NCBI GenBank assembly: GCA_938075305.1
Contig: CALJGV010000006.1
Coordinates: 186,001-250,000 of the forward strand
Direction: 5' to 3'
DNA length: 64,000 bases
Source of the DNA: an uncultured bacterium
Lineage (GTDB): Bacteria > Planctomycetota > UBA1135 > GCA-002686595
This document shows positions 25,180 to 30,358 of this stretch, one piece after another. A program made the translations under genes and the position numbers. The notes below the pieces were generated by a model, which saw only the letters and a list, made by a program, of their open reading frames with translations, searched no databases and had not been told where the DNA came from. How positions within the stretch are numbered: position 1 is the stretch's first letter; every line of letters starts with the position of its first letter.

Positions 25180-26187
25180 TCAGGCCTCGTCCAGGCCCCG
25201 GACGACCCGGTGGGCGTCCCGGAGGACCTCGTCCACGCCGGTCCCGAGGATCGAGGACATCCCCACCACCGAGCCGCCCGCGACCGCCCGGAGCTGCTCG
25301 AGCCGCTCCTCCCATCCCTCGTCCTCGAAGCACTTCGATGCCACCGTGAGGCGAGGCTTGGCGTGGAGCTCTGGCGAGTAGCGTCGGAGCTCGTCCTCGA
25401 GGGTCTCCCAGGCCGCGGCGGGCTCGCGCTCGGCCGCCTCCGAGACGTCCACGAGGTGCACGAGGATGCCGCACCGTTCGACGTGCTTGAGGAAGCGGTG
25501 CCCGAGTCCCGCGCCCTCCGCCGCGCCCTCGATCAGCCCGGGGAGGTCCGCGACCACAAGGGTGTCGTAGTCCTTCACGCGGGCGATGCCGACCTGGGGG
25601 TCGAGGGTGGTGAAGGGGTAATCTGCCACCTTCGGGCGGGCGGCGGTCACCCGGCTGATGAAGGTCGACTTGCCAGCGTTGGGGAAGCCGAGCAACCCCA
25701 CCTCAGCGAAGATCTTCAGCTCCAGGCGAAGCCGGCGCTGTTCGCCCGGGGTCCCGAGCGTCGCCTTCCGCGGCACCTGCCGGATGGCGGTCGCGAAGCG
25801 GGTGTTCCCCTTGCCCCGCTTGCCGCCCTCGGCGACCACGAGCCGGTCGTCGGGCCTCGCCAGATCGCGCATCAGGTTCCCGCGCTCTGAGTCGTAGACG
25901 AGGGTCCCGACCGGGACGTGAATCACCTCATCCTGGGCGCTCTTGCCAGTCCGATTCCGAGGACCGCCGGGCTGGCCGTTGCGGGCGGCGTACCGGAACC
26001 TTCGGCCGATATCGAGCAGGGAGTGGACGTTCGGGTCGGCCACGAAGACCACGCTCCCCCCGTTCCCGCCGTCGCCCCCGTCCGGCCCTCCCAGGGGGAC
26101 GTGGGCCTCCCTACGGAAGGACACGATCCCGTCCCCGCCCTTGCCGGCGACGACCTCTACCTCAGCCTCGTCGCGGAACGTGGACAT
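25180..26187 (-). CDS. obgE: GTPase ObgE/CgtA
   Basis: FRDEAEVEVVAGKGGDGIVSFRREAHVPLGGPDGGDGGNGGSVVFVAD; GFPNAGKSTFISRVTAARPKVADYPFTTLDP. Confidence 0.96.
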   Translation of the reverse strand: MSTFRDEAEVEVVAGKGGDGIVSFRREAHVPLGGPDGGDGGNGGSVVFVADPNVHSLLDIGRRFRYAARNGQPGGPRNRTGKSAQDEVIHVPVGTLVYDSERGNLMRDLARPDDRLVVAEGGKRGKGNTRFATAIRQVPRKATLGTPGEQRRLRLELKIFAEVGLLGFPNAGKSTFISRVTAARPKVADYPFTTLDPQVGIARVKDYDTLVVADLPGLIEGAAEGAGLGHRFLKHVERCGILVHLVDVSEAAEREPAAAWETLEDELRRYSPELHAKPRLTVASKCFEDEGWEERLEQLRAVAGGSVVGMSSILGTGVDEVLRDAHRVVRGLDEA

Positions 26188-26256: not shown

Positions 26257-26505
26257 TCACTCGGCCGTGGCGTCCACGTGGACGCGACGGCCGGTCTGGA
26301 AGCGAACGGTCCCGTCCACGAGTGCGTAGAGGGTGTAGTCGCTGCCGAGGCCAACGTTCTTACCCTGCTTGAAGCGGGTGCCGCACTGGCGAACGATGAT
26401 CGTGCCGGCCGTGACCTGCTGCCCGCCGAAGCGCTTCACGCCACGGAACTGGGGGTTGGAGTCGCGGCCGTTGCGGGTCGAGCCCTGTCCCTTCTTGTGT
26501 GCCAT
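26257..26505 (-). CDS. rpmA: 50S ribosomal protein L27
   Basis: [45 protein letters not shown]. Confidence 0.97.
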
Positions 26506-26537: not shown

Positions 26538-26852
26538 TCAGCCGTTGATGTCCGTGATCCGGACGCGGGTGTAGGTCTGACGGTGGCCGCGCTTCACGCG
26601 GATGTTCTTCCGGCGCTTGAAGCGGAAGACGACCAGCTTGTCGCCGCGGGCCTCCCCCATCACCTCGCCGGTGACCTTGGCGCCGTCGACGGTGGGCTTA
26701 CCGATCTTGACGGAGCCCTCCTCGCCGACGAGCAAGACGTGGTCGAAGGTGATCGTGGAGCCGCGCTCCGCGTCGTCCATGAGATCGCAGAGGATCTCGT
26801 CGCCAACGCGCACGGTGGCCTGGTTGTTTCGGTCGCTGATGATCGCGTACAT
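26538..26852 (-). CDS. rplU: 50S ribosomal protein L21
   Basis: MYAIISDRNNQATVRVGDEI...FRFKRRKNIRVKRGHRQTYTRVRI; start moved to 26852. Confidence 0.95.
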   Translation of the reverse strand: MYAIISDRNNQATVRVGDEILCDLMDDAERGSTITFDHVLLVGEEGSVKIGKPTVDGAKVTGEVMGEARGDKLVVFRFKRRKNIRVKRGHRQTYTRVRITDING

Positions 26853-27061
26853 CGGTGCTTGATCCGGGCCCAGTTCCCCCGGATGGAGGCGACGGGGCGT
26901 CCGGCTATCCCACGGTGTTCTCTCCCGGGGGCCGCTCGGCTGGCCGAGGGGGCGAAAAGCATACGCCGGGCCCCGGCGGAGCACAACCGCCTCCGGGACG
27001 CCCCTTTACCGCCTCGCCCGCGGAAGCGCGGACCCTCCACCGCAGGGGGCGGCCAAGGAGG

Positions 27062-27142: not shown

Positions 27143-30100
27143 TCAGCGCTTCCGGCGGCCGCCGGGGCGGACCTCACGGCCGTCGGCCCGCAGGTAGCGC
27201 AGGACGCTGTCCTCGAGCTGGTCCGGCACGGGGGAGAGCTCGATCTGCTTCTCGGAGCGATGCTCCAGGGCGCGGACCCAGTCCCAGAGGTCCTCCTTCA
27301 GGTACTGGACGACCTCGGGGTGAGCCCGGACCTCCACCTTGGTGAAGCCCTTCTGGACCACGGCCCCACCGAGACGGCGCAGGATGGCCTGGGCCCTCGA
27401 CTCGACCGTACGGACCCGGCCTGTGCCGCGGCACCGCGGGCAGGCCTGGAAGACCTTCTTGTGGGTGCCTGGACCGAGGCGCTGCCGGGTCATCTCGAGC
27501 AGCCCGAACTGGCTGATGCGGCCCAGCTTGCTCCGCGCGCGGTCGTCCGCCAGCGCCTCACGGAGCGCCCGCTCGACCTGCCGGTTGCTCGAGGAGCGCA
27601 CCATGTCGATGAAGTCGCAGACGATGATCCCGCCCAGGTCCCTGAGCTTGATCTGGCGCGCGATCTCGGGGACCGCCTCCATGTTCGTCTTGAGCGCGAT
27701 GTCCTCGAAGTCGTAACTGTCCGTCCGCGTGCGCCCGGAGTTGACGTCGATCGCCACCAGCGCCTCTGCCTGGTCGAGCACGATGGAGCCACCCGAGGGC
27801 AGGTCCACGCGGCGCGAGAAAATCCGCTCGAACTCCTGCTCGAGCCCGCTCTCCTGGAACAGCGGCCGATCGCCCTCGTAGCGCTTGATGCGCCCGACGT
27901 GCTCGGGCATCAGCTTCTCGGCGAAGTTCACCATCTGCTCGTAGACGGTGAAGTCGTCGACCAGCACCTCCTTGGTGCGCCGGTTGAAGAGGTCGCGGAG
28001 CGTCCTCGTCGCCACGTCGGATTCGAGGTAGAGGGGGGCCGGTCCGCGGCTCCCCCGGAGCTTCTTGCCGAAGGACTCCCAGAGCCCGAGCAGGTAGTCG
28101 AGGTCCCGCTGCAGGTCCGCCTTCGTGCGCCCGACGCCCGCCGTGCGGACGATGACGCCCATGTCGGCAGGGGTCTTCAGGCTGGCGAGGATCCGCTTGA
28201 GGCGCTTGCGCTCCTTGTCATCCGGGATCTTCCGGCTCACGCCGGTGCGGGACATGGAGGGCATCAGCACGAGGTAGCGCCCCGGCATGGAGATGTAGGT
28301 GGTGAGGGTCGGGCCCTTGTCGCCGATGGCGTCCTTGGTGACCTGGACCACGACCGGGTCCCCCACCTTGAGGAGCTGATCGATCGGCCGCCGCTCCCGC
28401 TGGGGGCGCCGCTCGGACCGGCCCCTTGAGCGGGGGCCGCCGCTCTTCGAGCCGCCCTTGCTGGCCTTGCGCCGCGAGGAGGCCTTCTTCTTCGACTTGC
28501 GCTCGGCCTTCTTGGTGGTCTTCTTCTTGGCGGACTTCTTCGCGCCGCCCTCGGACCCCTTGTCGGAGGCCGTCGCCTTCTTGCGGCTACGCTTCCGGCT
28601 GGACGACCGCTTGCGGCCGCCCTCCTCGGAGTCGCCGTCCGACCCGGAGTCGCCGTCGGCGCTCGCGGAGGCGGCCTTCTTCGACGAGCGCCGCTTGCGC
28701 TTCTTGCGCGCCGGCTTCCCGTCGTCGTCGCCGCCCGGCGCATCGCCGTCATCCATCGCGGCGACCCGCGACGAGGCGGGGCGCCGTGACCGTGACCGGA
28801 GCGACCGGGTCCCCCGAGGCTCCTCCGCCTCGGCGTCCTCGTCGACGATCCCCTGGGCGAAGCCAGGCGCGGGCCCGTCGTCGTCATTGGAGGGACCTTC
28901 GTCGGAGGGGCCATCGTCGGAGGGGCCATCGTCGGAGGGACCATCCTCCTCGTCGGGCCCGTCGTCGGAGTCCCCCTGGTCGGAGTCCCCCTGGTCGGAG
29001 TCCCCTTGGTCGGAAGCGTATTCGCTCTCGGACTCGGCGGCCGGAGCCTCGGACGCGGCGTCGTCGCTGGCCGCTTCCTCGAGCTCGTCCTCGTCGTCGT
29101 GATCCTCGTCGAGGGCGTCGGCCTCCTCGGACCAGTCTGCGTCGTGGTCCCCTTCCTCGTCGTGGTGACCTCCCGTGAGCAGGTCCTCGAGCTGGAAGTC
29201 GTCGTCCGCGTAGATCGGCAGGACGTCGGAGGTGTGCAGGAAGCCGTTCCGGCCCTGACCGAAGTCGATGAAGGCCGCCCCGATAGCGGGCTCGAGGTTG
29301 ACGACACGGCCCCGGTAGATGTCGTTGACGAGAGTCTTCTGGCTCTCGGCCGTCATCAGGATGTCCTCGATGCGGCCGTTCTCGTAGACCGCAACGCGGC
29401 GCTCTTCGGGCTCCACCGCGTTGACCGCGATGGTCTGCGTCCGCATGGCCTCGGCCTCGGCAGCCTTCTCCTCGGCCGTCTTGGTCGCCGTTGCGGCGCC
29501 CGACTTCTTCGTGCGGCGGCGGGTCTTCTTCGTCGAGCTGGCCTCGCTGTCCGTCTCCGATTCGGGGTCGGCCTCGGCTCCGGAGTCTTCGCTCCCGGTG
29601 GCCTTCTTGCGCGAACGGCGGCGGCGGCGCTTCTTCTTGCCCCCCTCTTCCTCGGGCTCCTCGTCCCGCGAGTCGGAGGGCGCGCCCTCGTCATCGGAGG
29701 TCGCGGCGCCCTCGAGCTCCGCGCCCGAGTCCTCGTCGCTCGTCTTCCGGCGGGACTTCCGGCGGGTGCGCTTCTTCTTGCGCGCCGCCGGTTTCTCCTC
29801 GTCCGCCTCGGCGTCCGAGGCGCCGTCGCCGCGGGGAAGTTCGTCCTCCTCGCCGGGGATCACATCGACCTCGGGCGAGTCGTCTTCATCGCCGCGCTTG
29901 CGCCGACGCCCACCTCGGGAGCCCCGGCGGCGGCGCTTCCGGCCTCCGCGCTCGTCACCATCCTCGGCCGGGGCTTCTCCCCCATCCGGCTCGGCGGTCG
30001 AACGCCGACGGGTCTTCCTGGCCCTGGGCTCATCGCCCTCCGAGCCCTTCGGCTCGGCGCTCTCCGGCGCGGCATCGGCCTCTGCTCCATCGGAGCCAGC

Positions 30101-30358
30101 GTCCGAGGAGGCCGCTTTCTTGCGGACGGGCTTCTTGCGGACCCGCCGCTTCCGGGCAGGCTTCTCTGCCGGCGGACCGGCCTCTCCGGAGTCCGAGGCA
30201 CTGGGACGCGCGCCCGGCTCGATACCGGCGCCGAAGCCGCCGGGAGCGCCGTCCCCGGTGTCGTCGGGGCCTTCCCAGCTGGGGAAGCGGCTGGAGAGAG
30301 CGAGGCGAACCATCGAGTCGACAGAGAGGTCTCTGTCGACGGGGTACTGATCTGTCAT
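27143..30358 (-). CDS. rne: Ribonuclease E/G family protein with long disordered N-terminus and disordered insertion in the S1 domain
   Basis: IYRGRVVNLEPAIGAAFIDFGQGRNGFLH, LVLMPSMSRTGVSRKI, LPSGGSIVLDQAEALVAIDVNSGR, LRDLGGIIVCDFIDM, CPRCRGTG. Confidence 0.93.
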   Translation of the reverse strand: MTDQYPVDRDLSVDSMVRLALSSRFPSWEGPDDTGDGAPGGFGAGIEPGARPSASDSGEAGPPAEKPARKRRVRKKPVRKKAASSDAGSDGAEADAAPESAEPKGSEGDEPRARKTRRRSTAEPDGGEAPAEDGDERGGRKRRRRGSRGGRRRKRGDEDDSPEVDVIPGEEDELPRGDGASDAEADEEKPAARKKKRTRRKSRRKTSDEDSGAELEGAATSDDEGAPSDSRDEEPEEEGGKKKRRRRRSRKKATGSEDSGAEADPESETDSEASSTKKTRRRTKKSGAATATKTAEEKAAEAEAMRTQTIAVNAVEPEERRVAVYENGRIEDILMTAESQKTLVNDIYRGRVVNLEPAIGAAFIDFGQGRNGFLHTSDVLPIYADDDFQLEDLLTGGHHDEEGDHDADWSEEADALDEDHDDEDELEEAASDDAASEAPAAESESEYASDQGDSDQGDSDQGDSDDGPDEEDGPSDDGPSDDGPSDEGPSNDDDGPAPGFAQGIVDEDAEAEEPRGTRSLRSRSRRPASSRVAAMDDGDAPGGDDDGKPARKKRKRRSSKKAASASADGDSGSDGDSEEGGRKRSSSRKRSRKKATASDKGSEGGAKKSAKKKTTKKAERKSKKKASSRRKASKGGSKSGGPRSRGRSERRPQRERRPIDQLLKVGDPVVVQVTKDAIGDKGPTLTTYISMPGRYLVLMPSMSRTGVSRKIPDDKERKRLKRILASLKTPADMGVIVRTAGVGRTKADLQRDLDYLLGLWESFGKKLRGSRGPAPLYLESDVATRTLRDLFNRRTKEVLVDDFTVYEQMVNFAEKLMPEHVGRIKRYEGDRPLFQESGLEQEFERIFSRRVDLPSGGSIVLDQAEALVAIDVNSGRTRTDSYDFEDIALKTNMEAVPEIARQIKLRDLGGIIVCDFIDMVRSSSNRQVERALREALADDRARSKLGRISQFGLLEMTRQRLGPGTHKKVFQACPRCRGTGRVRTVESRAQAILRRLGGAVVQKGFTKVEVRAHPEVVQYLKEDLWDWVRALEHRSEKQIELSPVPDQLEDSVLRYLRADGREVRPGGRRKR
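28887..28946 (-). repeat. Imperfect 15-bp tandem repeat (about 4 units) inside rne
   Basis: tcggaggggccatcg units, encoding (DGPS[D/E])n. Confidence 0.8.
28965..29009 (-). repeat. 15-bp tandem repeat (3 units) inside rne
   Basis: tcggagtcccc[c/t]tgg x3, encoding (DQGDS)n. Confidence 0.85.

Follow-up and report, generated by a model that had tools for sequence, protein, structure and literature searches.

Conserved disorder at the N-terminus and inside the S1 domain of a planctomycete RNase E: a candidate relocated degradosome scaffold

RNase E scaffolds are viewed as C-terminal tails that change fast between lineages. The RNase E gene considered here lies in a 64,000-nucleotide stretch (the window) of contig CALJGV010000006.1, from an uncultured bacterium of the Planctomycetota, and its product carries long regions of predicted disorder at two other sites, ahead of the catalytic domain and within its S1 domain. 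Both regions are under purifying selection and contain short conserved motifs, one of which recurs on other RNA enzymes of the same genome. This pattern suggests a degradosome scaffold that has been relocated within the enzyme.

Several described systems provide a frame for this architecture. Assembly of RNase E complexes through short linear motifs is standard (PMC11964227), and in cyanobacteria a conserved C-terminal nonapeptide of the enzyme binds PNPase (PMC10989914). In Streptomyces RNase ES the catalytic domain is central, and PNPase contacts have been mapped on either side of it (PMC10126417). Inserts of the S1 domain, about 50-150 amino acids (aa) long, charged and predicted to be disordered, occur in alpha-proteobacteria and plants, and in Caulobacter the helicase RhlB binds to an N-terminal piece of the catalytic domain in which the S1 insert is included (Voss et al., PMC4245959). 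The initial annotation of this locus had named plants and actinobacteria as carriers of such inserts; the plants stand, whereas the literature places the others in alpha-proteobacteria (PMC4245959).

Architecture and conservation of the two disordered regions

The gene and its parts, all on the minus strand, are as follows.

27146..30358, minus strand: RNase E/G, 1071 aa, stop codon at 27143-27145 (TIGR00757, PF10150, alignment to E. coli RNase E)
29447..30358, minus strand: N-terminal disordered region, aa 1-304 (AlphaFold2; relatives)
29210..29446, minus strand: RNase H-like start and first half of S1, aa 305-383 (AlphaFold2, alignment to E. coli RNase E)
28394..29209, minus strand: S1-domain insert, aa 384-655, acidic in its early and basic in its late part (AlphaFold2, alignment, charge, lengths in relatives)
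27146..28393, minus strand: remaining catalytic part after the insert (invariant residues, AlphaFold2, alignment to E. coli RNase E)
27419..27442, minus strand: zinc-link motif CPRCRGTG, aa 973-980 (both Cys invariant in 54 sequences)
27146..27214, minus strand: conserved C-terminus EDSVLRYLRADGREVRPGGRRKR, with nothing scaffold-like after it (comparison of family C-termini)

An AlphaFold2 model, built from an alignment of 54 sequences, gives a predicted local distance difference test score (pLDDT) below 50 at residues 1-284 and 420-647, which agrees with the disorder proposed initially for both regions. In the insert the model contains no folded domain except a weak helix at 407-415 (pLDDT ~51-56). 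In the alignment with the E. coli enzyme, residue 383 is the last before the break in the S1 domain and residue 656 the first after it, so the insert measures 272 aa where E. coli has a 9-residue loop; the annotated place was right, and the annotated length of ~260 aa was slightly too short. The charged blocks noted at the outset are real: the 304 N-terminal residues include 69 K/R and 71 D/E, and the insert is bipolar, with a net charge of -50 over residues 393-520 and +24 over 566-658.

Both regions are under purifying selection. The ratio of nonsynonymous to synonymous substitution rates (dN/dS), measured against two relatives (G002 and G003), comes to 0.20-0.25 in each of the two disordered regions, compared with 0.03 in the core. 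Over 552 codons, the differences from G002 at the three codon positions number 17/16/68, dominated by the third position. The start MTDQ is common to most same-genus relatives and to several other genera, and same-genus genomes from separate assemblies carry an insert of 256-339 aa at the identical site. Across the family, whose proteins were located by anchoring with hidden Markov models, the catalytic start is preceded by an extension of about 220-590 aa in all 28 members whose N-terminus is complete (lengths are approximate, as start codons were picked by pattern).

These comparisons bear on the possibility that the insert or the N-terminus is an artefact of assembly, frameshift or start-site choice. 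The DNA is GC-rich and of low complexity, and long antisense open reading frames overlap it, which would suit such an error. However, the same architecture is found in independent assemblies, including the complete genome CP036434 (L036/G007), and relatives carry both regions in frame. Together with the conserved start, the in-frame indels and the purifying selection, these relatives rule the artefact out.

The lengths of the two regions are far less constant than their presence. The S1 linker spans 48-339 aa across the family. Among other families of the order, f6 and f7 combine an S1 linker of 115-277 aa with an absent or short N-terminal region, f5 has a short S1 linker, and in f8 and f2 an N-terminal region is present but the linker is short. 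Since lengths at the two sites vary separately among families, the disorder shifts between sites independently. The acidic half of the insert contains tandem-like repeats (DQGDS, DDGPS) whose copy number differs between the window and the 96%-identical relative G002, and this stretch therefore changes length fast. Insert size itself was dropped as an exceptional feature, as alpha-proteobacterial matches run to ~359 aa; that length, far beyond the 50-150 aa of the literature, is found in Methylobacterium aquaticum (L040).

Such variability would be expected if the disorder were a loosely constrained extension for RNA binding or solubility, in which basic blocks bind RNA, the rest drifts and any docking motif is a side issue. 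Besides the wide range of linker lengths, close relatives differ in length (their aligned inserts show 21 gapped columns), and column conservation averages only ~0.6 within the genus. The dN/dS values and the sharp conserved islands described below speak against this explanation, as do two non-basic motifs, FGxG and IPGE, that are kept between genera, and the occurrence of FGxG at the chain end of unrelated proteins. A loose extension is thus improbable.

The catalytic part between and after these regions is intact, as first annotated. The open reading frame exceeds the curated thresholds of TIGR00757 (457 bits, cut-off 326) and PF10150 (321 bits, cut-off 25.5); it lies below those of the E. 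coli-type equivalog NF008074 (370 bits, cut-off 908) and the actinobacterial equivalog NF052588 (277 bits, cut-off 1400). The canonical start MRTQTIAV falls at residue 305, where it had been placed, and a phmmer comparison of the catalytic part with the E. coli enzyme scores 341 bits. The S1, 5'-sensor, DNase I and small-domain parts are modelled mostly at pLDDT >90, and a Foldseek search with the model recovers the E. coli enzyme (2bx2, E 2e-45) as well as Caulobacter RNase E (4OXP). Residues R738, T739, D871, N873, D915, C973 and C976, equivalent to the E. coli 5'-sensor R169/T170, catalytic D303/N305/D346 and zinc link, are invariant across the 54 aligned homologues. The gene product is a bona fide RNase E. 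In several family members the zinc link reads CxxC without the proline of CPxC (CGRCRGSG in G013, CARCRGTG in G030), with both cysteines retained. No C-terminal extension is present: of the 33 family members with a match here, 32 stop at the same residue and one has a single residue more, in line with the claim that a C-terminal scaffold is missing.

Short motifs in the disorder and on other RNA enzymes

The following motifs were found in the two regions, those up to aa 252 in the N-terminal region and the rest in the insert.

30269..30283, minus strand: PSWEG, aa 26-30, genus-level motif [hydrophobic]P[SAC]W (7/33 family members, the same-genus ones)
30221..30241, minus strand: GGFGAGI, aa 40-46, followed by E, an FGxG[ILV] motif (16/28 complete N-termini; shuffled mean 0.07)
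29897..29935, minus strand: Arg/Gly motif RRRRGSRGGRRRK, aa 142-154 (RGSRGG in 24/33, 0.01 in shuffles; invariant in genus)
29837..29869, minus strand: acidic motif VDVIPGEEDEL, aa 164-174 (IPGE[DE]-type pattern in 25/33, 0 in shuffles)
29603..29635, minus strand: basic motif KKRRRRRSRKK, aa 242-252 (conservation island in genus)
29102..29167, minus strand: insert motif HHDEEGDHDADWSEEADALDED, aa 398-419, covering the weak helix (genus conservation, AlphaFold2)
28835..28867, minus strand: second FGxG-like motif, PGFAQGIVDED, aa 498-508 (four same-genus inserts)

In comparisons within the genus, the N-terminal motifs form islands in otherwise poorly conserved sequence, and the insert has further islands in EEGDHDADWSE, adjoining an S1 strand, and ERRPQRERRPI, at the insert exit. 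Expected frequencies come from composition shuffles. The second FGxG-like motif appears as PGFAQGI or PGFATGI in the inserts of four genus members, and the inserts of two f6 genomes contain GFGDGIN and FGFGAGIDE. In one genome, G045, from a family without the long N-terminal region, FGFGAGIDE sits in the S1 insert, as expected if the motif matters more than its position. Conserved short motifs go beyond anything claimed initially for this disorder.

The FGxG[ILV] motif also occurs on other proteins. A DNA-pattern search of the genome for G-F-G-x-G-hydrophobic-stop, with [ILVM] at the hydrophobic position, yields three sites, and the reversed pattern used as control yields none. All three belong to RNA enzymes.

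G000:C8:57772-59727 (L110, L127, L186): DEAD-box helicase whose long, disordered C-terminal tail is rich in Arg/Glu, contains GGFGLGL and ends in ...SAPSGGFGAGI
G000:C32:138962-140362 (L107, L129): second DEAD-box helicase, ending in ...GGGFGRGL
G000:C18:34252-35244 (L128, L216): Tpt1/KptA RNA 2'-phosphotransferase (PF01885, 71 bits) with an RG-rich disordered tail ending in ...SGSAPSGFGAGL (SGFGAGL)

The GGGFGRGL ending also occurs in the same-genus genomes G002, G003, G005 and G008, in G008 on this helicase and in the others by DNA match. A broad search for internal GFGxG gives 27 matches in the genome against 10 for the control, mostly in folded proteins or non-coding frames; its matches in disordered regions are limited to RNase E, both helicases and Tpt1. 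A relaxed C-terminal pattern, allowing up to three residues past the motif, adds no further convincing protein.

Over 37 family genomes the C-terminal pattern, which here admits TGG instead of a stop, gives 72 matches against 26 for the control, and outside the family 27 against 23; the outside matches that were inspected are mostly non-genes and were rejected. Tpt1 itself is present in 34/37 family genomes and 0/24 outside, and is thus family-specific within the order. Its tail carries the motif in all 27 orthologues, at the C-terminus in 26 and in two copies in 23 (shuffles 0.04). Among helicase orthologues, a script finds the motif in 22/30 tails (shuffles 0.01), and the coordinates of a GFGAGI-stop match add G022, whose open reading frame escapes the script, bringing the count to 23/30. 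Pus10-like pseudouridine synthases of three genera end in the motif as well, in the forms GFGAGI (L148, G026), GFGEGV (L299, G013) and GFGDGV (L300, G025). The presence of one motif on RNase E and helicase suggests that the two may associate.

The immediate context of the motif is stereotyped. Among 102 copies it is preceded mostly by G or S, x is Ala in 59, and the hydrophobic position is followed by the chain end in 40 and by D/E in 19. Docking motifs typically follow a grammar of this sort. It also bears on the view that the disorder chiefly drives phase separation, as in BR-bodies, with the charge blocks and FGxG acting as weak self-associating stickers without a specific receptor. The high, block-patterned charge would fit such a role; disordered regions of alpha-proteobacterial RNase E make BR-bodies (PMC10412687), and one motif on several RNA enzymes would likewise bring them into a single condensate. 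Nevertheless, a short and stereotyped motif that often forms the very end of the chain or directly precedes an acidic residue, and that is present in only one or two copies per protein, looks more like docking into a pocket than like multivalent stickers. Phase separation as the chief function is accordingly unlikely.

The proposed scaffold and its significance

The reading favoured here, with somewhat more confidence than doubt, is that the disordered regions of this RNase E form a relocated degradosome scaffold that uses a short docking motif shared with other RNA enzymes. The initial annotation had proposed an alternative scaffold or a condensate-forming architecture, and the former is supported indirectly, by conserved motifs far above the shuffled expectation and by the one found on other RNA enzymes. 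The scaffold would have shifted from the C-terminus to the ~300-aa N-terminal region and the ~270-aa disordered S1 insert. There, the Arg-rich blocks (RRRRGSRGGRRRK, KKRRRRRSRKK) may bind RNA and keep the substrate close to the catalytic tetramer, and the short motifs would dock partner proteins. Since disordered tails of helicase, Tpt1/KptA and Pus10-like enzymes share FGxG[ILV] with RNase E, these proteins are probably gathered by one putative FGxG-binding hub, or by each other, and could then form a degradosome-like assembly. Like its Caulobacter counterpart, the bipolar insert would sit at the RNA entrance, where it may control RNA access or bring in a helicase.

A bolder version is plausible but falls a little short of even confidence: the planctomycete family would possess a code of its own, FGxG[ILV] followed by an acid or a free C-terminus, that gathers RNase E, helicases, Tpt1/KptA and Pus10-like enzymes on one putative receptor. 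Such a hub would be unrelated to known degradosomes and would place bacterial Tpt1 in RNA decay or repair.

The insert could, alternatively, act mainly in regulation, by gating the S1/5'-sensor channel in competition with RNA, a role that has been suggested for the Caulobacter enzyme. Its insertion site is the same as in 4OXP, its strongly acidic early part could imitate RNA, as acidic insert residues possibly do according to Voss et al. (PMC4245959), and a conserved DHDADWSEEADAL segment adjoins the S1 strand, accompanied by the weak helix. The low AlphaFold confidence of that helix counts against a gate, which would, moreover, leave the N-terminal region unexplained. As the main role of the insert a gate is rather doubtful; as an extra function it is compatible with the relocated scaffold.

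Several observations weigh against the scaffold itself. In 11-12 of 28 family genomes RNase E lacks a clear FGxG, and some of these retain the motif on the helicase. Strict co-occurrence of the motif on RNase E and helicase is a weak trend (Fisher p = 0.085, hand-tallied and uncorrected for phylogeny) and was set aside as evidence. Shared ancestry within each protein family stays in the motif statistics despite the shuffles. In addition, RNase E has only one or two copies of the motif and might therefore be a hub client rather than the scaffold.

If the relocated scaffold is real, the scaffold function has seemingly moved to two other sites of the same enzyme with a short motif kept, and a new degradosome-like assembly would exist in a phylum with none described in the literature searched. 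Bacterial Tpt1/KptA is widespread without a known substrate, and its role is a riddle (PMC6333775); the proposed association would make that role testable. The motif shared with helicase and Tpt1, which leads beyond the RNase E locus originally annotated, is the most interesting lead to emerge from these sequence comparisons.

Genomic setting and comparison with known RNase E systems

Downstream of RNase E, the window encodes three further genes, which together with it make up an operon in the order rne-L21-L27-obg.

26538..26984, minus strand: ribosomal protein L21, rplU (TIGR00061)
26257..26505, minus strand: ribosomal protein L27, rpmA (read from sequence)
25180..26187, minus strand: Obg GTPase (TIGR02729)

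The order rne-rplU-rpmA-obg is frequent in bacteria. RNase E/G is present as a single copy in the 4.4-Mb genome, and its closest named records come from Planctomycetota, among them the complete genome of Planctomycetes bacterium Poly30 (the CP036434 assembly above). The genome also encodes PNPase and DEAD-box helicases. Searches for RNase J (TIGR00649) and RNase Y (TIGR03319) gave no match at E <= 0.001 in this genome, which is ~90% complete. Because PNPase is present and RNase J and RNase Y are unmatched, the main endonuclease of RNA decay here is probably RNase E.

With E. coli RNase E, the protein shares all catalytic sub-domains and the zinc link, and it resembles the E. coli degradosome in its short motifs and Arg-rich, putatively RNA-binding blocks within disordered sequence. 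In contrast to E. coli, the putative scaffold lies on the opposite side of, and within, the catalytic domain, and C-terminal microdomains of the E. coli type are absent; the FGxG motif is not described for E. coli RNase E in the literature searched. The cyanobacterial enzyme offers a parallel in having a conserved short motif within a non-catalytic region. Its nonapeptide is Arg-rich and resembles KKRRRRRSRKK, but position and sequence differ here, and the resemblance is only a lead.

Streptomyces RNase ES likewise has a long non-catalytic region ahead of the catalytic domain, which in that enzyme contributes to scaffolding. It differs in possessing a C-terminal region, which is lacking here, whereas the S1 insert is an addition of the planctomycete protein. 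In the RNase E of Caulobacter crescentus (4OXP) the corresponding S1 loop likewise carries an insert that is charged and predicted to be disordered, and that lies, in Caulobacter, at the RNA-binding site. Unlike that enzyme, the planctomycete one lacks both a C-terminal scaffold and a terminal GWW motif, has an additional large N-terminal disordered region, and bears an insert of unrelated sequence.

An RNase E with both sites, without a C-terminal scaffold and with a shared FGxG was not found in the literature searched, which did not cover the Ait-Bara and Carpousis 2015 classification. Each half of the architecture has its own precedent, and what is new is the combination and the lineage, not the principle. 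Within one planctomycete family this combination, with the C-terminal scaffold absent, is conserved throughout.

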